In this document: positions 32,270-56,364 of the stretch, piece after piece
Numbering within the stretch: position 1 is the first letter of the stretch
Layout of the letters: each line of letters begins with the position of its first letter
Assembly: GCF_030704535.1 (NCBI RefSeq)
Contig: NC_081818.1
Location: 26,389,001-26,453,000, forward strand
DNA length: 64,000 nucleotides
From: Vitis vinifera
Lineage: Eukaryota; Streptophyta; Magnoliopsida; Vitales; Vitaceae
Direction of reading: 5' to 3'
Notes under the pieces: model-generated
Told to the model about the DNA's origin: nothing
What the model saw: only the letters and a program-made list of their open reading frames with translations
The model's database searches: none
Program-made: the position numbers and the translations under genes

Positions 32270-34734
32270 CCGTCTGTTCTGCTGATAGTATCTGGCTTAA
32301 CTAAAGGGACAAATATAGCATAACTTGATATCAGAAAATCATGCCGTGCACTTCGGGTTCTTCTAATGTTGCATGAAGTGTGGGCAAAGAGCTGTGTTTT
32401 CTTGTTTGTGGCCCAGATTCAGACACCATTGCAGACAATTACAATGGAGTGGCACGAGAAGCATAATTAGTAGTCATGGAAAGCTAGCTTGGATTTTTTG
32501 TAGTCCACTGGTTTGCAAGACTGGTGGGGTCTCAAGAGGGTAAGGTCATATATTTAAATTGCTGATTGGGTTTCCTCTGTTACAAGTGGGAGAGAGAATT
32601 TTGATGAATCCAAAGGTTAATGGACTCCTATTGGAGTGGGTATACCGTATGGGTACCATAAGTGTGAGATACGTGCAAAGTGACACCTTTTATTATCACC
32701 AATCTACACAGTGATGATCAAATTTTGCCCATAATGAATGGTTTATCAATCTCATCACCCTCCCTTGTTCCAAAATGCTTCTTGTACATCATAAGAATTT
32801 TTTTTTTTCCATATCCAGGTTTTACAATGGACCTGTTTGAAAAGCCTATCAAAGTTGTATATAATGTATGGTTATCATAATGGCTTCATCCAGTATTCTC
32901 TTTTAAGGGCCCGCACATGTACACACCTATGGTTAGAAAATGAAGAGAGATAACAAATTTTTTTAAGTTAGTAAATTATTTTTCTATATTTTTAAAATTT
33001 ATTCTACCTGTTATTTTTATATAAAACGTTTTTAAGTTACTTTTGAATTTGGTAAAATATAAATAATTTTATTAAATAAATGATTTTTTTTTATGGTTTT
33101 CCTTTTATAAATATAAAAAATAAAAATGTTATTACTTGTTAATATATTAGTAAAAAAAAAGAAAAATGCAAAAACGTGTCATGTACATATGTTATTGAAA
33201 ATAATAATGAATAATATATATTTTATTTCTAAAATATAATATAAAATGAAATCTTGAATAATAGAAAAGATAGATATAGATATAAGAATAGATTTTAAGA
33301 TTTTAATTAAATTTAGTTCTTTTTTGGTTGTTAAGGTGTTTAATAATACTTTAACTCCTCTAATATTTTTATTTAAATAACAATTATTATTATTATTATC
33401 TCATGGAAATGAAAGTAAAAAAAATATATTATATATTTGTAAATTTCTTTTTTTGTTATATTTCATATAGCAAAGGTTCCATATTTTAATATTTAGTAGG
33501 CAAAATTATAAATTGAAAGAACCGTTTTTTTTTTAAATATATATATAGCAAATGTTTTAATTTTGATATTTCATTAAATTCAAATTTAATAGGCTGGATT
33601 GAAATAATTATTATTTTTCAATAAAGTAAACTAAAATTTAGACAAAATATTGCATTAATGTAAAAAATATAATTGTATCAAGATTGTGTATAAAGAATGC
33701 AATGGAAGTATAAAAAAAAAATGTTAAGAAAAATGATTTTTTTATATTTGGTTGTCCTATAAAATATTCTAAAAAAAAATTAAATATAATTAAAATTAAT
33801 TAGAAACTTATGTATCTTAAAATTATTTAATCTTTATATTGATGAGTTAAAATAAATAAAATGAATTTGAAGTAGCAAATAAAAATAATTTATCATCTTT
33901 AACTCTATTTTTTATTTTTCTTTACTTTTTATTTCCTTTTATTTTTCCTATCTATTTTATTTCCTTTACATTTTCCCTCAAATTTTTTGAGAACCAAACA
34001 GGAAAACACGTTTGGTAGTTGAAAAACTGTTTTTTAGTTTTCACTTATTTTGTAAAAGCTATTTTAAAAAATAACAATAAAATATATATAATAATTAAAA
34101 ATAAAACAGTAGACATAATAATTATTTTTAAAACACATTTTAAAATAATAAAAATAGATTAAAAATAATAAAAATAGATTAAAAATGTTTTAGGTTTTCA
34201 AAGGTATCTTTGTTTTACAAAATATCAAATAACAGTTTTTAAAAAATAGTCATGAAACAAATCACCAAATTGTATTCATCTTCCAATCGACTTTTTTTTA
34301 TTTTTTATTTATAAATATTTTTATTATTTTTTAATTGATATATATATAAATAAAAATAATGATTAGGATGAAGGCTGAATCCCACTAGGAATGTAATTAT
34401 GCGAATTTAATAATAATTATAAACTCAAATCCTTATCAAACTAAAGACTCTCTAACTCTCCAAGTCTAACCTCGATGAGCATCAACGTCACCAGGAATAT
34501 CACATACAAAGTCCTGTTTGGAATATGCATCTTGGACCTCTCAATCCTCGATAAGTACAATCCTGTCAGAGCTTAGCTTCTTAACTCTCGCAAACGGTCC
34601 CCTATACTTCTCCTCTTCCGTAAATACTAAATACCACCCACCGTCACTTCCCCCTTCCCTGCTGCAAACCCTAGCTTTAATTTTTTTCTGTTTCAGATTC
34701 AAAATCATACAGATTGAATTCAGTTAGGGTTTCC
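32270..34734. other. GTE 3' UTR and AT-rich intergenic spacer
   Basis: The first several hundred bases are of mixed composition and are the GTE 3' UTR. From about 32940 the DNA is extremely AT-rich with homopolymer runs. A copy of the dispersed MITE-like repeat lies at about 33985-34270 (AACCAAACAGGAAAACACG, then the shared core to GGTTTTCAAAGG). The last 250 bases hold the TLC gene promoter. No other gene is supported. Confidence 0.5.
33985..34270. repeat. Copy of a dispersed AT-rich MITE-like repeat
   Basis: Shares with 8455-8790 and 46975-47350 an ordered core: TTTTAAAAAATAA, AATATATATAATAATTAAAA-like text, an AAAACA..AGACATAA block, TTTAAAAT.. and TTTTAGGTTTTCAAAG. The ends are too degenerate to define inverted termini. 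Confidence 0.5.
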
Positions 34735-35493
34735 ATGGAAACCCTAACTTTAGTTCATTCTCTTCCGAATCTTCCCATTTTCTTCTTTCTGTTTCTCGCA
34801 ATTTACCTTGTTGGTTACTTCGTCGTCTTCCGAAATTGGAGCCCCAAGATCCGACCTGAAGCCTCCAGCTGCTTCATCTCTCTTGCCCATGGCACTCCGG
34901 CGGTGGTTTTGGCCTCGTTTGCGCTCTACGCCGACTCGCAGCGCGGCTTTGCTGCTCCCAATACGGCGTTTCAGGGCCTGGTGCTCGATTACAGCATTGC
35001 TTACTTCTTGATGGATCTGTGCCATTACTTGGTCTTCTTCCCCAGCGACATCCTCTTCATTGGCCATCACCTCGCCACACTCTTCGTCTTCGTCACATGC
35101 CGTTACGTCGTCTTCCACGGCTCGTACGCCATACTCGTTTTGCTTGTTCTGGCAGAGGTCACCAGTGCGTTCCAGAACACGTGGACGCTCGCCGGTGCTC
35201 TGAAATCCGACGTGGCGACTGCGGCGAAAGTGTATGAGCTCTTGTCGCCTCCATTTTATGCATTCTATTCCGTCGTTAGAGGATTTATTGGGCCGCTGTT
35301 CATGTATAAAATGGGTGTGTTCTTCTTGAGTGGGGCCGCTGATCATGTGATTCCTAGGTGGGTTTGGGTTTCCTGGATTTTCGTTGTTTTATCGGCAATT
35401 ATGGTTAGTATACTCTGGATTTCAAATCTTTGGGCTGAGTTGTATAGGGAAAGGAAAACCAAATTGCAGAAATTAGAGAAGAAAGTAAGTTAG
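34735..35493 (+). CDS. TLC-domain multipass membrane protein (252 aa)
   Basis: An intronless gene; the ATG at 34735 lies in TTTCCATGG, a good plant context. The protein has about seven hydrophobic segments: residues 14-33, 47-66, 83-102, 108-123, 131-146, 170-200 and 210-233. The conserved TLC block includes DYSIAYFLMDLCHY at 85-98, the double histidine of FIGHHLAT at 108-115, and a LAEVTSAFQNTWTL motif at 139-152. It ends in a basic ER-type tail, RERKTKLQKLEKK. The family (TRAM/LAG1/CLN8, here TLCD4/TMEM56-like) comprises ER or Golgi lipid-handling proteins; this plant subgroup lacks the longer ceramide-synthase hallmarks. The last codons contain AAAGTAAGT, a strong 5' splice-like sequence at about 35482, so an alternative spliced C-terminus is possible. 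Confidence 0.88.
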   Translation: METLTLVHSLPNLPIFFFLFLAIYLVGYFVVFRNWSPKIRPEASSCFISLAHGTPAVVLASFALYADSQRGFAAPNTAFQGLVLDYSIAYFLMDLCHYLVFFPSDILFIGHHLATLFVFVTCRYVVFHGSYAILVLLVLAEVTSAFQNTWTLAGALKSDVATAAKVYELLSPPFYAFYSVVRGFIGPLFMYKMGVFFLSGAADHVIPRWVWVSWIFVVLSAIMVSILWISNLWAELYRERKTKLQKLEKKVS

Positions 35494-37864: not shown

Positions 37865-40800
37865 TTAAGAGTAGAATTCATAGGTTTTTGCTTCGAGTAT
37901 GATGTTCCTCAACGCTCCAATAGGTGCCAAAATCATCAACAAAAGTCCCAGAATAATGCAGATCTGAAATCAACAAAGCAAGATCAGATCAAAGGAACAC
38001 AAATTTTGAAGCAAATGAAATAAGGACAATGAGACATCAAGTCAGAACATACCCAGTTAGCTATCCAAGATAGGCTGTATTTCTTAGGCTTGTAAATGGC
38101 GAGCCACATTACGCAAGGCAGCTGAGGAACATAAAATGAGTGACAAAAGCATTAGTATGAATCCTTATTGCAGGACTAGTAAATTGAATTACAATCTGCC
38201 AAGAGCCCTGTGCTTACAAAGTACGTTGTAGGCGCAAAAGCAAATCCTCCAAAGAAACTCAGAAGGCCACTAAAGAACGGGAATGTGATGCCGACAAACA
38301 TTGTGAATGCTGCAAACAACGAACACATTGATTTTAATGCCATAGACCACAATCCCAGCAATATCTTAGTTGATAGGGAAGTATCCTGAATACTTACCAA
38401 CATATATGTTCCGAGAGATGAACCGAAGGGTAGTGCTGGGTTTGAAATGCAGTTTCTTTACCAAGACAGTTTCTATCATATCAAACACTGGCATAGCATA
38501 AATCTGCATGAAGGCACACAAAACCATGAGTTGGAGGAAAGATTTGAGACGACTGAATTAGGGGGGTTTGGGACAGCACCTGATAGCTTCCAATAACATG
38601 GATGACCACGAACATGTTGGCCATAGCAATAAGCCATGCAGGGTTCTCCAATGAGATCAAAATGTTGTCTGACACCGCATTCCCAAACATCCAGTATCCA
38701 ATTAGAGCCACAGGGAAGTAACACAAAGCCACAACTATATAGGCCACAATCACTCCTCTCCACATGGGTCCCTTAGATGGCTTCTCAGGTGTAGAAGGTA
38801 TGGTTGCTTGGATCTCTAAGACCACATTGTGCCCAGCATAGGCAAAAGCCACTTCGCCCAACGCACTGAAAAAGTTGAAGACAGTCCCTGCTGTGGACTT
38901 GGCTTTGTAGCCATACTCCACATTGTCCTGAACGCCCTTATCCACGGAAGCTCCCCAAGCAATGGTAGAGTAACTGCATCACAAAACATCAAATATGTTA
39001 TTGTGTTTGGCTCACACTTGGATCAGCAGTTTCATTTCTTAAGATCAATTGGTACCTCAAGGACATGACTGCAGCTGCAAGAGAAACACCAGAGATGGAG
39101 TTGAAGTTGGGGAGATGGGAGAGCACGAAATGAACAGAGGCGAAGATCATGATGAAGTAGGTAAGTTTGATCGGTTTGCAGGTACTGCAGACGGTGTCAT
39201 GGAATTTCTTCAGTGATTTTCCTCCGGTCACCATGTACACTATGTCTACGCCCACTTCAACGATAAGCTGTTGAGGCACCACAATGTAGAGGCCGAGCTT
39301 CTCGCCGAAGGCATGCTGACCCAGTTCGTGGTATCTGTCAAACCTTTTCCCAGGAACCATCTCGTGCATCTCAACCATTTGCCATAGTGTGTAAAGAGTA
39401 ATGATCCATGATAGCACCATTATCACCACACCAGGACCCCTGAAAAGATCAATATTTTTTTTATGTTCAACCTTAATCAAATGGAATCAGACATAAATAA
39501 TAAGGCAACTATCTCTTGTAAAGACACAAAAGACATACCATCCAAGCTCGGACATGGCGTAAGGGAGACCGAGGACACCAGCTCCGACCATGGCAGTAAC
39601 ATTGTGGAATGCTGAATACCACCATTTTGCATTCCTGGAGGAAGAAATGGGCAGCCAATCATCGATCTCCTTCTGCCTTGCTAATTTTTCATCTATCTGC
39701 CATTGATTATCAAACGACACATCAATTTACAGAAAATTCAATCTCCATGGCGACTCTCAAGACTTGTTTTCAATTTTATTTTTTTTGGTTGGGTTTCATT
39801 TGGTAGTGGGTGAAGCAAGGATGATATCATGCCATCATGGTTTGGAGGGAATTGAGCACTACGAATCTCGGTAGTGGGATGAGTATCCCCACGCTTTTGG
39901 AGAAGGCTTTTTGTCATCTCTCGTGGAAAAGGCCTCCACGTGCTATGCAACTTAGACCTTGGACCTGTCAGCCCATTGGCCGGCCACTCTTCATGCCCAC
40001 CACTTTTTAACACACATCCACTTGAAAAGACAGCTCAAACCATTTTCAAGGTAGAACGAGAAAATCATGTAAAAGGAAAAACCCATGAATGGGAATACAT
40101 TCTAAAAATTTCTTGGAAATATCTTTAGAAAAATATTAAAATACAATTTTGTATCTTAAGAAACCTGATATTTCAAGTACTTTTAAATATACTTTCTATA
40201 TATATACTTTTTAAGAAATAATAATTCTTCTGTAAAATATAAAAAGTCTTAAATAATGTTTATTATTTAATTTAATTTTAAATAAAACCTTAATACTTAA
40301 TAGTGTTAAATATTAGGTTGTTTGTTTTTGTAATATTTTATTTTTATTAAGTATTAAAAATAAAGAAAAATATTTTTTCTATTTATAGAAAGTAATATAT
40401 TTTTATTTAATAAAAAATTTATAATAAATCATGAAAAAATAAAAAAATAAAAAATTTAAATTCTGAAAATAAATTATTTTAAGTAAAAAACCAATAAAAA
40501 AAAACAAACACTTTTTATTTTGAAAATTGTTTTTTTCCAAAACGAAACCCCCAACAATTATAGCAAAAAATAAATTTTCTAAAACCCATTTTAGGTACCT
40601 AAAAATAGTAGTTGCCCATATCATCAACCAACCCTGCAGAGACGATAAATCTTAATTTTCAAACTTGCGGGTTCACTTTTGTACCCATTAACTTTCATAA
40701 GTCAACAAGAGTTGGTAGCAGGCACATGAATTGTAAGATATTTTCTGACATATATATTATCAGCCATGTTAACTACAGCTTCGAGGATGGTTCCTCCTGC

Positions 40801-44955: not shown

Positions 44956-45233
44956 AGCATTTTAGTATAAAAATGACATGCCCGAAATTGACTTGAAGGT
45001 ATGGCAGATTGTGTTTGGATTTACCTACGTAGAGAATATGTATATTGAAATTTAACCAACTTTTCTTTCTTATTGTATAGGAGTTACATCACATGAAAGA
45101 ATTTTTTTGTCCACAGGGCAGCATCACCCTGATGCGGGAATATGTAAGCAATAGTTTGATGGTGGTGTGTGAAAGGGAAGACAAACATCCAATGGCATGG
45201 GCTGTCATGCCTCAAAGATGAGGAAAAAGGGAA

Positions 45234-46355
45234 TTTTTTTTTTTTTTTTAACTTGTACGGCTATTTTAAAAAATAATTTTAAAAAAATGGTATTTTAAAA
45301 AATAATTCCAAATCTACGACATTTTTTGTCACTTTGAAAGGTGTTTCTTAAAGAGACACTTTCTATATTGTTCATATCAACCATAAATGTTTTTTAAAAA
45401 AATTGAATTTACACTAAAAATGTTTCTTGAAGAGACACCTTCTATAATTTTATAAAATAGAATATATGTTAAAGGTGTCTTTTCAAAAGACACTTTTTCA
45501 TCATTTTTTTATTAGTCATACACGTTAAAAAAAAATTTGAATTTATACTAAAGAAATATCATTTCCACAATATCATAAAATCAAATTAATACTAAAGGTG
45601 TCTCTAGAAGAGACATCTTTGATAATTTTCATATCAGTCACACAGTAAACAAAATTGAATTTACATTGAAGGAGTCTAGACAATTCCACAAAATTGAATT
45701 TATATTAAATGTATCTTTTGAAAAAACACTTTCCACAATTTTTATATTAGTCACTTATAAAAAAAAAATTAAATTTATACTAAAAGTGTCTCTTGAAGGA
45801 AAATCTTTCAATATAAATTTAATTTTATAGAATTGTGGAATGTGTTTTTTTAAAAATACACTTTTAGTATAAATTCAATTATTTCAATAGATGACTGATG
45901 CAAGAATTGCTGAAGGTGTCAAGAGACACCTTTAATATAAATTTAATTTTATGAAATTGTAGAAAGTGTGTCTTAAGAAGACATCTTTAATATAAATTCA
46001 ATTTTTTTATTATGCAATTGATATGAAAACTGTGAAAAATGTCTATTTAAAAGACACCTTTAATATAAATTCGATTTTGTAAAATTATAAAACGTGTCTC
46101 TTGAAGAGACACTTTTAATGTAAATTCAAATTTTTTAAATTTATGTTATTAATATAAAAATTGTGGAAATAGACATTTTCAATATAAATTCAATTTTTTT
46201 GAATATGTATTATTTATAAAAAAAATGATATAAAGTGTCTTTTTAAATACATCTTTAAAAATGACAAAAATGATAGTAGATTTAGAAATAGTTTTCATTG
46301 TACTGTATTTTAAAAAATTAATTTTAAATTCATTGTACAATTATAAAAAATCCAG
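45234..46355. mobile_element. 1.1-kb inverted-repeat (foldback) element made of short palindromes
   Basis: The two halves are diverged inverted copies about a dyad near 45795. The left end (TTGTACGGCTATTTTAAAAA, then AAATCTACGACATTTTTTGT) pairs with the right end (ACAAAAATGATAGTAGATTT, then TTTAAAATTCATTGTACAA). Within it about twelve modules of the type GTGTCTCTTGAAGAGACAC recur every 60-130 bases (near 45346, 45430, 45475, 45597, 45711, 45786, 45850, 45918, 45967, 46050, 46093 and 46228). They are separated by TATAAATTCAATTTT spacers whose orientation flips at the centre. No coding capacity. It resembles a foldback or long-TIR non-autonomous DNA element; no target duplication was recognised. 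Confidence 0.7.
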
Positions 46356-48150
46356 GATAAAGGCAAATCAGCACATTAAAAAAGGGTGAAGTGGGCATAG
46401 TAAAGCGGTACTTGACAAGACATATTGGGTATTCAAGTCCACTCATTGGACCTGATGCGATATTAGCAGTTTCCAAGAGTTTTAAAACTATCCAAAAATT
46501 ATCATTATTAAATAATTTTTTTAAATTATATCATCTTTTCCATTAAAAAAAAAGAAAAAAAAGTCATATTTTCATTAGGTTTCCAATCATATCATCTTTT
46601 TAAATTGAAAAAAAAAAAGGAAAATAGTGAGGAGATTGATGAAAGAATCATAAGCCCATTCCCGGCATGCTGAGTCATAATGTGAAATGCATGGAAGCAT
46701 CCAAAACTTGGGAAATCAATGCATGATGATTCCGAGAAAATGCCATGAAAATATCTCCATCATTTTCCAGCAGAATGTTGGAGGTGGTTACAGCTAATTC
46801 GACTTAAAGATTTTTCTATTGCAGGGTTATTTAATGTAACAGCAATAATTTGTGTGCAAGTTTTGGAGAATCCAAGCACAAGACTCCAACTCCATTATTT
46901 TGTCCGCGGGCTTCTTGGCTTTTCTCTCATAGTGGTAGCGAGCACGCCACGGAGACTCCGGGTCTGCTCGACGACTTTTTTTTAAATACCAGTTTTCTAT
47001 TTTTCAAGAAAAAAAAACTGAAAAATACATTTAGTACTGAAAAATTTGTTTTCTATTTTGTTTTTTTAATAACACAAAACATGATATTTTTAAATAACAT
47101 TTTTAGTTGTTTTCATTTATTTTTAAAAAATAATTATACAAATATGTATAATGATTAATATTAAAGTCTTAGACATAAAAATTATTTTAAAAATATATTT
47201 TAAAATATTAAAAATAGGTTAAAAACATTTCATGTTTTCATGAAATTTATCTATAAATTTATGGTATTAATTAGATTATTATTTGAGTTTCAAGTTATTT
47301 TTAAAAACTATTAGACTTGTTAATAAATCAAACACATTAAGTCTTGTTTAATTTAGAGTTCATTTACTTCTTAGCCTCTGAACTTGACCACGAGGGTGAT
47401 ATAATTGGTGGTCACTATGTTAGCCTTGTTTGCAAGGGTTCATCTAGGAGGATCAACACAAGTACCTCGGTTACCTTGACAAAAGTGGTTTAATTCTAGC
47501 TCAAACGGGGGTTGTAGGCTCCCTAGACTCATTCATGCCTCATTCCTCTTGCAAACATCATCATAAGTGAAATATCAACTTTCTTATTAACAAAAAAGAC
47601 TTCTAACAAAAAACAATAAAACGAGATAAGATATTTACTAGCATTAGAAGTGCAAAGAATGGATGTCTATTAATAAAACCAAGCACTTTTAGGTAACCAA
47701 TGGTGATTATATATGATTTGACAAGAATGCAACCCTTCTGTTTTCCATTAGATTTGTTATCCTAACTAGATTGAAATTGATGTCCTATCTACCAATGTTT
47801 AAGTGACAAAGGGAAAATATGATTATTTGGTCTATCGCAAGAGACATTCATTAGTGGTCCTCAACTACTAGCTGCATTCATGAAATTGGGAAAAGGGCAC
47901 CAAGGAGAGGATAAGAGGAGACCCTTAGAGATGATATCAAGAGATACTAAGAAGTTTAAACCCAGAGTGGTCCTAGTCTCATTATTGTTTTTATTCTTAC
48001 TTCGATTGAAATGGACCTTTAAAGCTTATAGTAATATTTAGTTCAAAAAGTTAGCTAGGTAGATGACTGTTAGTTCATTTTTGCAATATTGAGATCTAAA
48101 GTTAAGTCTCAAATTTAACTCAGTTCTAACTTTGTTACATCATGCTTTAT
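46356..48150. other. Intergenic, contains a MITE-like repeat copy
   Basis: Holds a copy of the dispersed AT-rich repeat at 46975-47350 (CCAGTTTTCTATTTTTCAAG, then the shared core to AAACATTTCATGTTTTCA). A tRNA-like B-box (TATTCAAGTCC at about 46431) has no convincing partner. No gene is supported. Confidence 0.45.
46975..47350. repeat. Copy of a dispersed AT-rich MITE-like repeat
   Basis: Shares the ordered core with 8455-8790 and 33985-34270: AAAAAATAATTATACAAATA, then an AATGATTAATATTAAA block, a TTAGACATAAAAATTATTTT block, AATAGGTTAAAAAC and TTTTCATGAAA. It may be member of one non-autonomous DNA transposon family. Confidence 0.5.
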
Positions 48151-50655: not shown

Positions 50656-53417
50656 TCAAGCTGTTGATAGAACAGAACGCTTGTAAGTCTGGTTGTGCTG
50701 ATGTCTGGTGACTGGGTTTTTCACAGAGAGGCCTGGTGCGCCAAAACAGAAGTACTGGTTCATCAGCCTCTTATTAGCTGATCCGGATTTGTGAATCAAA
50801 TTTGGTGTTCCATCGGCAAATATTTGATTGGAGCTGGACGGTCTCCCTGAATCGCTCTCAACATAAATACCCTTTTGTTTATCCAATGAACCAGGTGAGG
50901 AAATTGATGATTTTGAGAATGAACTTGAGCGTGATCGACCTGGAATGGTTATATGGGGCATGGACTGCATGATGCCATGCTTTAACCCTGAAGCAAATTT
51001 CTTCTTGGCAACTGGGCTTGCTAGATTGCTCCTAACAGCAAGTGTTCGTTTGTTGTTGGACAGTGCTGGGGGCTTTGAAAATCTCTGCCGCAGTGGGGTT
51101 GGAGTTTCATCCAAATTGCTCCCCTTCTTATGTGACTCCACTGAATTGTCATCTCCCAATTTCTTGAACCTCTCTGGTTTTTTCTCTTTTGCCCGTGGCC
51201 AATGAAGCAGGCTTTTTAGGCGTTGTGCTGCATAATTTACCGTATTTGCTTTCTTATAAGTTGATGAGTTGGGATTCTCAAGGGCTGACTCAAATGGACT
51301 CGTGTCAGCTGAATATGAACTCAGTCCTCCGCTACCTTGATCCATGCTGACATCAGACTCATTCTCAATGCCCGTGCACAAGAATATTTCTGTGTCAGAG
51401 ATACTGAAGGAAGTTCCAGGACTACTTCCACCAGTACCTTGCATCTTTAAATGGGAAATTATGGCCCTTCTTGCAGTATAATCTTGACAACTGAAGATTC
51501 CCCCAGCAGAAATCAACTGCCTGATCAGTATTTCTGAAGATGCTGATCGAGGCCGTTGCCTAAGGAGGTCAAGTGGAGTCATGCCATCTACATCACGCAT
51601 GTTCACATCAATTGAGCGTGCAGTCGTCAGGTGTTCCACTAGATCTGAGTGAATATTCCCAATGATAGCCATATGAAGAGCGGTTCTTCCATCATTATTC
51701 TTTGCATTGATGACTTCTTCCATGTTGAAAACTTTTCCACATACTAATTGCTTCATAAGCTCAACCTGTCGATCCAGCCTTCGGAATCCAGGGGTTTGAA
51801 AACCAGACACTGCCATATGGAGAAAAGTTTCTCCAGCATTGTTTTTCAAGGAGATGGAGGAGGGAGAAGCAAGAATCAAGGCTTCAACCACTGCTAATTG
51901 ACCCCTGTAGGCAGCAACATGCAATGCCGTGTTGCCTTGATTATCTGTTGAGTTGATGATATCAAAGGATGCTACAAGTTCTTTAACCACCTGCACAAAT
52001 AGCAAGATTGGCAAATTTAGATACCAATCTGCTTCAACAAATAAAATAAAAAAGAAACCTCCTCCTTATGTGCAATCCTGAAGAGGATATTGACAATAAT
52101 GGATATGAGCACCTAGAAAATTAACAGGATTTCCTAGTTTTTCAGTGTGTCAATGGAAGATGATTTCATAGCCTTATTTTCCTAACAAGTAAACTTGCTT
52201 GATCTCGACATGATTTAGTCAGGACTTGTTTAGTTATAATATGGGTATCATGAACTATGAACAAATTAAATATATCCCATTCAACCAATAGACCTTACAA
52301 AAACATTAGATTAAAAAGGTAGGTGCTCTAATTAGTCAGCAAACACAATCATTTATTAAAGTTTAGATGATAAAGAAAAAAGATACGGTGAGCCGAATAA
52401 ATCCAATGTAGACATGAGCTTAACCAGCTTCTCCAACTTCATACCCTTTTCTGCTTGACTCACAAAACTCCATCAACCAAACCATACAAGTTAAATCCAA
52501 CAGTGAAGATCCTAGATCTTGATTTATGACTATTCTTAACAATGATTATATAGGAAACAAAAACTAGTCAATTAAACTGCTATTGTCTTCAGGACAGCAG
52601 CACCTCAGGATATCAAATTGTATTAGCCAAAAAGCAGGAATAACTAGGAGCAGAATGGCATATAGAAAAGCTGAAACTGTAAATAAGCAGACAATAGTGG
52701 GAGCCTAACCTCAACTTGCCCTCTGCCAGCAGCTGCATGTAAGATAGTTGATCCTTGAATATCTCTATATGCCAAAACATCTGAGCAATCACTAAGGAGC
52801 TCCTTCAAAATCTCCAAATTTCCCCCTCTGGCAGCAGCATGAACAGCTCTATTTATCATCTCCCACTTAAAAACAGAAGGGATCTCCCCAATTTGCTCCT
52901 CCAGCTCTCCACCTTTGCCGGTGGAGAACCTTGGGGAGACTGCAAAATCAAAAACCAGCCTAAAAACCTGACAATTCTTGCTCCTGGCAGCAGCATAAAG
53001 TATATCAGTAACACCATATTCTCCTTCTCCAAAAACAAGAAGAGGGTCTCTTTCAAGCAGTTCCTGAACAAAACCCAAGTCTCCAGCTGAGGCAGCAGTA
53101 TATAGAAACCATCCACCATAGCCAGACCTGATGAGAGAATTCTTTCCTTTCTTAGATTCACCCTCGACAAGTAGCTTTTGAGCCACCTGAGAGCGGCACC
53201 TAGCAACATCATGGAACTGTTCTTCATCATCCCACACAGTTTCAAGACGGCGAACTCTGCGAAGTGAGGTGAGCTTGATAAGGTGATTGCTGTCAATGCG
53301 AAGGAGCTCCCTGACCAAGTCATAGTGGCCATTTGCAGCAGCCCAATCAATGGGGGAAGCAAACCACCACTGATCACCAGTGCTCTCCCACCGAAGAGGA
53401 AAGTATGAAGGAGGCAT
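50656..53417 (-). CDS. Ankyrin-repeat protein, two coding exons (680 aa)
   Basis: Minus-strand exons 53417-52710 and 51990-50656 join in phase (GQVE|VVKELV) and give 236 + 444 residues. The only in-frame ATG upstream of the conserved region is at 53417 (MPPSYFPLRWE). Ankyrin repeats run from about residue 20 to 370: PIDWAAANGHYDLVRELL, WFLYTAASAGDLGFVQELL, NRAVHAAARGGNLEILKEL, STILHAAAGRGQVEVVKEL, NTALHVAAYRGQLAVVEAL, ETFLHMAVSG and RTALHMAIIGN. A Ser-rich, basic, low-complexity C-terminal half follows and ends ...QTYKRSVLSTA. There are no transmembrane segments, unlike the ITN1/ACD6 ankyrin classes, so it is a soluble scaffold of a plant-wide but poorly characterised family. The partner and role are unknown. 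The stop may lie upstream of the ancestral C-terminus (see findings). Confidence 0.88.
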
Positions 53418-56364
53418 TATGAGCACAAAACTCCAAAGCAGAGGAAGATAATAACAAAGAGGACCAATTTTCAGGGAAAGAAAACTAGCAACCCTCTTGG
53501 GATCCAATTAAATCCAACTGAACAAAGCTATAACCCAACTGCTTGGTATCAGCTGTGCCAATTCTAGTCCTTTTTTACTTTTCTTTTTTTGAGATAAATA
53601 TCTAGAAAAACGAAAACCCAATCAATAATGCAATCGAGAAAATTGCAACAACTATGTAATCACCTAGAATTCACCATTCATTGAGGAGAATATCAAAAGG
53701 GCGTATTGAGTTCTAAGGAATAAAGCATGACCCAAAAACAAGGCTAGAACAAATGGAATGAGAAGCAAATTTACAAGAGAGGGAGAGAGGGGTCGGCCAA
53801 CAACGAAGACTCCTGAAATTTCAACTTGAGAGAGAACATAACCACTTGGAGAAGTAAAGAACACCTTGTGAAGCTTACACAGAGACAACAGAAGAGAATC
53901 CTCCGAAGTTTTTCTCCCTTAAGCAGTTGAAATACCTGCTGCAAGACGCATTAGATCTCTGACAGAAAATGAAAAATAACCTATAAACAACAAAGGAAAA
54001 ATAAAGACCACCCCCCTACAGTTGGTGATAATGATAGGGAGAAATAATTGATAAGATCAACTAGATGAAATTAGAGGGAAGAAAGACGACAGCCATGATG
54101 CTGGCTGTCCATAGGAGAAAAATCCCCAGAAAAGGCAAAAAAAAAAAAAAGGAAAAAAAGGCCCCTCAAGGAAAAAGTTGGTAATTAAGGGAAAAAATAC
54201 AGCTAGAAGACCAAAATAAGAACTGCTTTAGAAGGAAACAATTAACAAGACAGAACTGAAGAGGGTCTTGAATCTTGACAGGTTTTTGGATGTTTATGAA
54301 GAAGGAGAACAAAATACTAGAATTTAGAAATAAATATTACAAAAAGTCAAGATTCCTTCTTTTAACTGCAAAAGGGTGTTGGAGATGGACACATCATGAT
54401 GGAGATATCTGGGTGTATCTTTTTATGTGTGTGAGAGAGAAAGAGTGCTTGTACTCTAATCTTGTATGCGAATGAGTCATGAGTGTGTGAATGAGGGTTT
54501 TGCCTTTATAACTGATATAGTCTTGGGTGATAATAATGGTTACACAGTCTTTACCCAGATGAATCCGAGGGAACATGCGTAAAGAGAGAGAGAGGTGTGC
54601 ACTGTGCACACACCCTTGTCTTGGAGTTACATTTCCACTATCAGAATGCTCATAGAAATTATAGGATGGGCGGTGACTTGTGCAACCCACATCCCATTTG
54701 CCGACCTAATCTCCAGCCCATCGAAGACATGAAAATAGTTTGTTAGGTCAAACCACCTAGCTTTTGAATTAATGTTGAAAGGTCTTAGTTTCAATACCAT
54801 GTGATCTTCTGGTTAGACTATGACATTATACTTAAATGGGTTTGTTTAAAGTTTGAATTTTTAGTTGTGACCATGTATGACAAGTGCAACACCACCCACC
54901 TTTTGGCTTGTGATGTTAATGTGGGTGAGGTTTCCACCCCACAGGCATGGTCCTGCGCTGTGCGGCAAATGTGGGAGCTTCATCCCATGTAGGACCAGTA
55001 TGGTTGTGGAATTACGTGAACTGCTGCTGAGAGAAAATTAGACCCTGTTAAGATGAATTTTTAAGAAGGCAAAAACTCTATTTTAAGCTCAACAAGGTTT
55101 TTGTGACTATTTGACTAATTTTGTTTAAAATACTTGAGACTTCAAAAAGAAATTCTTTCATGTTTAATTTAAATATTATGGTTTTGATTTCAGCTTCAAA
55201 ACAAGAAAAACCAAGAAGTTACTCCAAACAAGGCTTAGTCTTTCATCAGCTGCCAGCCCCATTCTTGGTCATCATCAAAACTTCCGACCTTCTTCCGTCT
55301 TCTGCAGATCAAATCCAAACAAGGACGATCTCCCATTGATGGCTTTTCTTTATTTATTTGTAGTCTTTATTTTCGGCTGTGGTAAGCACTGATGAAGAGA
55401 CCATGCCGAGCATCATCATTAGCCCAGTGAGGCAAATATCTTAAAGATGCTGATGCATGCTTGTATCATATGTACACCACTTCAATGCAGTGGAACTTTG
55501 AATCATGGAATGTGATGTTGAAAAATTGTGGACTAATGAATTTATGAAGGAATTCTGATCCAAGGCTTTGATCCCACCGCCAATTCTTCTTGAAAATTGA
55601 CTGCAATGTCAATTCCAACATGCTTGCTTTCTAATCCATCTTTGTCTCTGCACAATATGATTTGTTATAAAAACACAGTTCCCATTGTTGGTATAATGAA
55701 TTCATTTAAGCTATTATTATGAGTTGATATTCGTATGTCTTACATGCTATGTGTATTGTACCCACTATCCAGTAAGGTTTCACATAGAGCATGCCTATGT
55801 TGAATAAATATAGCACAAAGATTATTGCACATGGAAGCCTGTGCTCAGAAGGTTAGAAACATAGACACATGAAAAGTGAAGGAGACCCATGTGAGAAGCA
55901 ACTTTAACTTTTCAAGTATGGCATTCAAAAGGATGTAACAGAGGGACATGCTTTAAGCAATAATAATTCATTGGATGTCAAATTTCAGTTTCCTGATTGC
56001 ACGATTTTCCTGCTTCCTGCCACCTTTTCTTTTTCTGTTTCCACTAAGCCTCCCTCATCTTCACATGGCCATAAAGCAAGGCGTACAGTCTCCTCTCTAG
56101 CACTCCAGTCAGTCAGTCCCAGTAGGGGGCTAGATTGAAAGGTATGCTCAACTAAGTGTTATTATGTCTTTGCTAAATCTACCTATTAAGTAATGGGCCA
56201 TCAGGAATCTGGACCACCTGACCATATGCATCACGACAGTCATTTCAATTTGTATGTAAACCGACAAACTTCATCACAAGAGCTTGAAATTGGGGTAACA
56301 AGCTAAGTCAAGCGAACATGGGGTCCTGCAAGTGGATGATGCAAGGAGGAAAAGGGAAAAATCA
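53418..56364. other. Ankyrin gene 5' region and intergenic DNA
   Basis: The ankyrin leader and promoter are expected within 53418-54100, with GA/CT-rich tracts (53780-53790, 54435-54450, 54580-54592). Possible 5'-UTR introns cannot be fixed. From about 54700 to 56300 I see no exon with splice support. A GC-richer patch at 54885-54990 has no recognisable identity. Confidence 0.4.

Follow-up and report, generated by a model that had tools for sequence, protein, structure and literature searches.

MULEs that carry a plant mobile domain (PMD) are known in plants and include MUDRAVI2, MUDR, the VANDAL groups and others (PMC6446971, PMC5418596). A role of the captured PMD in anti-silencing is called a "tempting speculation" in PMC5418596, and the role of the PMD protein, together with any chromatin contact, is described as unknown in the parts of PMC8616336 and PMC9899485 that deal with it. 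In VANDAL21, an element protein binds a motif and removes silencing (PMC5735166, PMC10398659). Foldback MULEs have been described as Tm1 of Meloidogyne (PMC3169594) and Muta1 of Aedes (PMC5225508), and FARE of Arabidopsis is a foldback-type MULE as cited in PMC3169594. For grapevine, a MULE survey described the Mutavine families, including the 11-kb Mutavine-2 / Mudravi2 (PMC2528002).

The element studied here lies in a 64,000-nucleotide stretch of Vitis vinifera DNA (the window) and can be compared with these systems. Like the described PMD-MULEs, its coding relatives combine a MULE transposase containing a SWIM finger with a PMD frame in sense or antisense orientation, and the 10-bp duplications found here are close to the 9 bp of PMD-MULEs and the 9-10 bp of the MUDR group (PMC6446971, PMC5418596). 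The descriptions of PMD-MULEs in those two papers, as far as they extend, mention no palindrome array or foldback derivative, unlike the situation here. Dense arrays of short motifs in MULE non-coding parts, which differ between related families, are also a property of VANDAL21/VANC21 (PMC5735166, PMC10398659). The dense family-specific arrays match VANDAL/VANC by likeness only, and the motif is not YAGTATTAY. VANC motifs are described as 9 bp long and in one orientation, whereas here putatively functional 27-bp dyads occur together with a PMD frame (PMC5735166). For the putative function, VANC motif arrays are the nearest parallel. Tm1, Muta1 and FARE resemble the elements reported here in their composite inverted repeats of many short repeats, MULE-type transposase and non-autonomous derivatives, but as described they have 12-15 bp tandem motifs and 8-9 bp duplications, whereas here the palindromes are spaced and the duplications are 10 bp (PMC3169594, PMC5225508). 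Mutator-type MITEs are described as non-coding and dispersed, with terminal inverted repeats and target duplications (PMC12550479). The window element is likewise non-coding and dispersed, with inverted ends; however, its 1123 bp (1.12 kb) exceed the MITE limit of about 800 bp taken from PMC12550479 (≤800 bp in that survey), and its inside is occupied by the array and not by unique filler.

The window element and its dispersed family

The sequence-only reading had proposed a symmetric 1.1-kb foldback with its centre near 45795. This structure was reproduced: the element spans window positions 45231-46353 (1.12 kb), its arms pair at 84%, and the computed axis is near 45796. The proposed limits of 45234-46355 were revised, because the target duplication gives 45231-46353 instead. 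Self-alignment of the arms covered 465 aligned positions with 84.3% identity and a score of 269, against a mean of 33.6 and a maximum of 47 in 100 dinucleotide shuffles. Long inverted repeats make up most of the element and are accompanied by internal repeats, as in the foldback class, and the terminal inverted repeats are 70% complementary (Table 1). The predicted RNA fold of the element has an energy of −333.9 kcal/mol, compared with −173.3 (sd 6.6) for 15 shuffles. The element is AT-rich (19-23% G+C in 500-base windows wholly or mostly within it). A frame scan found no reading frame of ≥110 aa in it, none of the 10 scanned window frames overlaps it (0/10), and an Rfam scan of the window gave no family at its threshold.

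At a threshold of ≥16/25 against AAGGTGTCTCTTGAAGAGACACCTT or its complement, nine palindromes were counted, with spacings of 55-180, whereas 100 base-shuffled sequences gave a mean of 0.04 and a maximum of 1. About twelve had been proposed; nine stand at this threshold, and half-decayed ones (e.g., 45839 and 46232) raise the count towards twelve. The window copy is worn. Its GGGC terminus is gone, so the left end was placed by eye; the automatic end finder chose another left end, at which the duplication is only 3/10. In the window palindromes with a readable core, the two triplets agree in 0/7. With its terminus lost and its triplets in disagreement, this copy is expected to be immobile.

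Table 1. Features of the foldback element, in window positions
Feature	Position	Strand	Basis or remark
Whole foldback element, 1123 bp	45231..46353	.	43-copy alignment and ends
Left target-site duplication, aggaaaaagg	45221..45230	+	9/10 like the right one; left end by eye
Right target-site duplication, aggataaagg	46354..46363	+	9/10 like the left one
Long inverted repeat, left arm	45242..45786	+	Self-alignment
Long inverted repeat, right arm	45805..46350	-	Self-alignment
Left terminal inverted repeat, ending in palindrome 1	45243..45352	+	Best match is the MULE right end
Right terminal inverted repeat	46241..46350	-	Matches the MULE left end with its outermost bases
Palindrome 1	45338..45362	+	22/25
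Palindrome 2	45417..45441	+	22/25
Palindrome 3	45472..45496	+	22/25
Palindrome 4	45595..45619	+	23/25
Palindrome 5	45708..45732	+	19/25
Palindrome 6, at the axis, worn	45783..45807	+	20/25
Palindrome 7, worn	45963..45987	+	19/25
Palindrome 8	46036..46060	+	20/25
Palindrome 9, quoted in the sequence-only reading	46091..46115	+	23/25

A 44-nt A/T-rich repeat in two copies, 75% alike, lies just right of the element at 46519-46623. The neighbouring coding regions of the window comprise a TLC domain (34681-35493, +), an amino acid transporter (38481-39486, −), ankyrin repeats (50656-53507, −) and mitochondrial ribosomal protein L37 (57490-57918, −).

We searched the genome (G000, 495.6 Mb, 21 contigs) with each half of the element and found that the window element belongs to a dispersed family. 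For the two halves, 40 of 428 and 40 of 362 first-look candidates were scored, so the copy number is a lower bound. Including the window element, 43 distinct copies were compared; in the aligned parts, identity to the window element is 85-92% for the other 42. Both ends were found together in 29 of the 43 copies. Twenty-two of these 29 have GGGC... and ...ATCC ends, which is the arrangement of the window element, and 7 are of the GGGC type on both sides. Duplications of 10 bp are exact in 8/29 and within two mismatches in 11/29 (0.000 in the control with re-paired flanks), and duplication lengths of 8, 9, 11 and 12 gave 0, 1, 4 and 1 cases within two mismatches in the same 29 copies. In some of the failing copies, an end seems to have been set one base away from its true place (e.g., L051 and L006). 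The right-end pattern of the family matched 47 times in the genome versus 0 times in the reversed control.

Coding relatives and the swapped triplet

The left-end pattern of the foldback family also matches a related end, GGGCTTTTTTAACTTTTGCGGCAATTTT. Comparison of GGGCTTTTTTAACTTTTGCGGCAATTTT-type ends with MULE transposase matches led to an element at G000:C3:10479015-10490016 (the C3 MULE). It is 11,002 bp long, is flanked by a perfect 10-bp duplication (TAATTTTAAA) and has the ends GGATTCTTGATAAAT... on the left and ...GTTAAAAAAGCCC on the right. Selected frames of the coding relatives were scanned with Pfam. The 854-aa frame of the C3 MULE contains MULE (PF10551, 2.4e-19), MuDR DNA-binding (PF03108, 4.8e-11) and SWIM domains, and two PMD frames are also present (1.1e-34 and 4.2e-19). 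A copy on C18 has an uninterrupted 854-aa frame with 98% identity to the C3 frame. The C3 family could be Mutavine-2 / Mudravi2, but Mutavine duplications, where found, are always 9 nt in the survey as it describes them, whereas they are 10 bp here (PMC2528002). The words "palindrom" and "subterminal" are absent from the main text of that paper.

The right end of the C3 MULE contains 17 palindromes, whereas the rest of the 14.7 kb read has none. This array is located downstream of the transposase and PMD frames, 3 kb beyond the transposase frame. A palindromic right end lies 3.7-6.1 kb downstream in 13 of 21 hand-picked transposase copies, and for 8/21 none was found among the 41 ends compared. 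Palindromes also lie 3.2-3.4 kb downstream of a further transposase copy, on C4. Two non-autonomous derivatives of about 2.1 kb (C3, L063 530-2629; C7, L065 550-2610) have both MULE ends and the palindrome array, with perfect 10-bp duplications. For the last 218 bp of the C3 MULE, 23 of the 42 near-full matches listed are 97-100% identical, from which we infer that the last movements of the C3 family are probably younger than those of the foldback family. The tandem repeats of 266-272 bp that precede the MULE transposase frame contain no palindromes (L068 305-2038, C3). At two places MULE right ends stand face to face, 50 bases apart (G000:C19:13030099-13030606) and 38 bases apart (G000:C18:2115005-2115478), as either adjacent insertions or composite elements.

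Both the ends and the interior of the window element align with the ends and the array of the C3 MULE, which marks it as a non-autonomous element of MULE type that has shrunk to a pair of ends and an array. The left end matches the MULE right end at 73.6% over 110 positions and the MULE left end at 65.7% over 108. The right end matches the MULE left end at 74.3% over 101 positions and the MULE right end at 67.2% over 116. In both orientations, the interior can be aligned with the array at the MULE right end (73.2% over 984 and 75.8% over 1,009 positions). The 10-bp duplication (8/29 exact; 9/10 in the window) is within the approximately 9-11 bp of MULEs, and the ends are common with a transposase-coding element, which is related and not the direct parent. 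No transposase was found next to an end of the foldback family's own type (TTGTACGGC), which leaves the family without its direct parent.

A sister MULE is present on C9 (L071, G000:C9:1850220-1857500, and L074). Its transposase has no stop and is 70% identical to that of the C3 family. Its PMD frames, with pieces 71% and 64% identical to those of the C3 family, are antisense and lie between two CTC-type arrays, of which one has 10 sites right after the transposase frame and the other at least 18 sites beyond the PMD frames. The C3-family palindrome is GAA-RGT-GTCTCTT-S-AAGAGAC-ACY-TTC and the sister palindrome is GAA-CTC-GTCTCTT-S-AAGAGAC-GAG-TTC; the families differ within the 27 bp by one triplet (RGT vs CTC) replaced in both half-sites. 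RGT is found in 17/17 left and 15/17 right half-sites of the C3 family, and CTC in 39/39 left and 37/39 right half-sites of the sister family (C9 and C7 sites). The half-sites of the 43 foldback copies have RGT in 400/652 and CTC in 0. In the C3 family, the outermost G-C pair is only loosely kept (8/17 paired). The 15-bp core is kept across these families, which are 70% alike in protein, and the linkers diverge. With ≤2 mismatches allowed, the genome contains 967 RGT-type and 1,960 CTC-type sites (0 in the reversed controls), and a third triplet class, searched as a purine before the exact core, gave 0 genome sites. The 4,521 bases read downstream in a 56% identical MULE relative are free of such palindromes. 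The palindrome has no resemblance to the DOWN motif (CATGCAGTTT) of the MORC1 promoter, which is tied to MAIN/MAIL1 in the account of PMC9899485.

Putative function of the palindromes

We consider it probable that the window element is a worn non-autonomous foldback MULE, moved by the transposase of such a MULE, and that its palindromes are putative dyads for an element protein. The foldback copies would have been mobilised by transposase from such a MULE. Less surely, each palindrome may be a dyad of two half-sites (GAA-RGT-GTCTCTT) for a dimer of an element-encoded protein, either the transposase or the PMD protein, and the array may guide this protein to its own family. The foldback element may then have spread because it has little beyond two ends and a dense array. 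The earlier suggestion of a protein-binding array at the end of a transposon is favoured by the array at one end of the transposase-coding relative. The palindromes of the C3 element carry 1.72 bits per position, compared with 0.75 and 0.61 in the flanks, although this sharpness, like that of the half-sites compared between the C3 and sister families, is inflated because the modules were chosen by motif. The consensus-bound half-sites and the triplet change in both halves form the pattern expected of a dimeric DNA-binding protein, and the existence of a sister family with three letters swapped suggests that a protein reads the sites. On the sequence evidence, the palindromes look like putative protein-binding dyads and not hairpins kept for pairing, and we infer that they may be family-specific address sites for an element protein.

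In another explanation the hairpin itself is the point, with a folded transcript feeding siRNA or miRNA, or with short hairpins processed singly. The predicted fold is indeed very stable, and MITE-derived plant miRNAs have been reported (PMC12550479). The earlier suggestion of a small-RNA source holds to the extent that the long hairpin exists and could give rise to siRNAs; as the main role of the element it is not supported, given the arms of the short palindromes. Selection for paired RNA should leave covariation between these arms, and none was seen within families, with 196/238 cells paired in the C3 family (shuffle mean 195.3) and 515/546 in the sister family (shuffle mean 513.8). The pairing itself therefore does not look selected. 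With the C3 MULE array lying so far beyond the transposase frame as well, the hairpin explanation is highly doubtful. The palindromes may alternatively be a functionless mutational by-product, in which hairpin-mediated repair perfects inverted repeats and tandem duplication spreads them. Foldback elements are described as rearranging readily (PMC3169594), and one template switch could alter both half-sites. The palindromes of the foldback copies are also no better kept than their linkers (87.7% vs 89.2%), and 783 of 922 shifted masks were as good or better. This even decay is expected of dead copies, yet it gives the address reading no support. However, repair would palindromise any sequence, whereas here a fixed 15-bp core persists across families with diverging linkers, and within a family the two arms vary without following one another, contrary to what repair would produce, which makes a by-product decidedly unlikely.

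Host sites are often borrowed by transposons, and a host transcription factor or insulator-like protein could bind the palindromes at a site which the elements borrowed. The position of the sister arrays, right after the transposase frame and beyond the PMD frames, agrees with such a factor, but the C3 MULE array is downstream of both genes. A single host factor would have no need for a triplet that changes from family to family, and we regard this explanation as unlikely. Returning to an element protein as the reader, we tentatively propose, as a possible but rather doubtful extension, that PMD-MULEs carry a two-part address (the GTCTCTT-S-AAGAGAC core plus the RGT/CTC triplet) which a dimeric element protein would read, and that the foldbacks would be parasites keeping little else. 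The protein reading the address is perhaps the PMD protein, which by analogy with VANC may act as a sequence-specific anti-silencing or recruiting factor.

Implications for PMD-MULE families

Foldback MULEs, PMD-MULEs and VANC motif arrays are already known. We recognised no description of these palindromes or of the swapped triplet in the literature searched, whose scope excluded most subscription papers and Repbase, and a search on the palindrome letters gave no transposon-titled paper among the matches listed. This genome contains two sister MULE families, both with PMD frames and each with between one and two thousand near-identical dyads that differ by a triplet from those of the other family. 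They offer a ready specificity test, namely whether the PMD protein or the transposase prefers the triplet of its own family. If true, address reading would explain how a transposon can shrink to a palindrome array and yet still spread.
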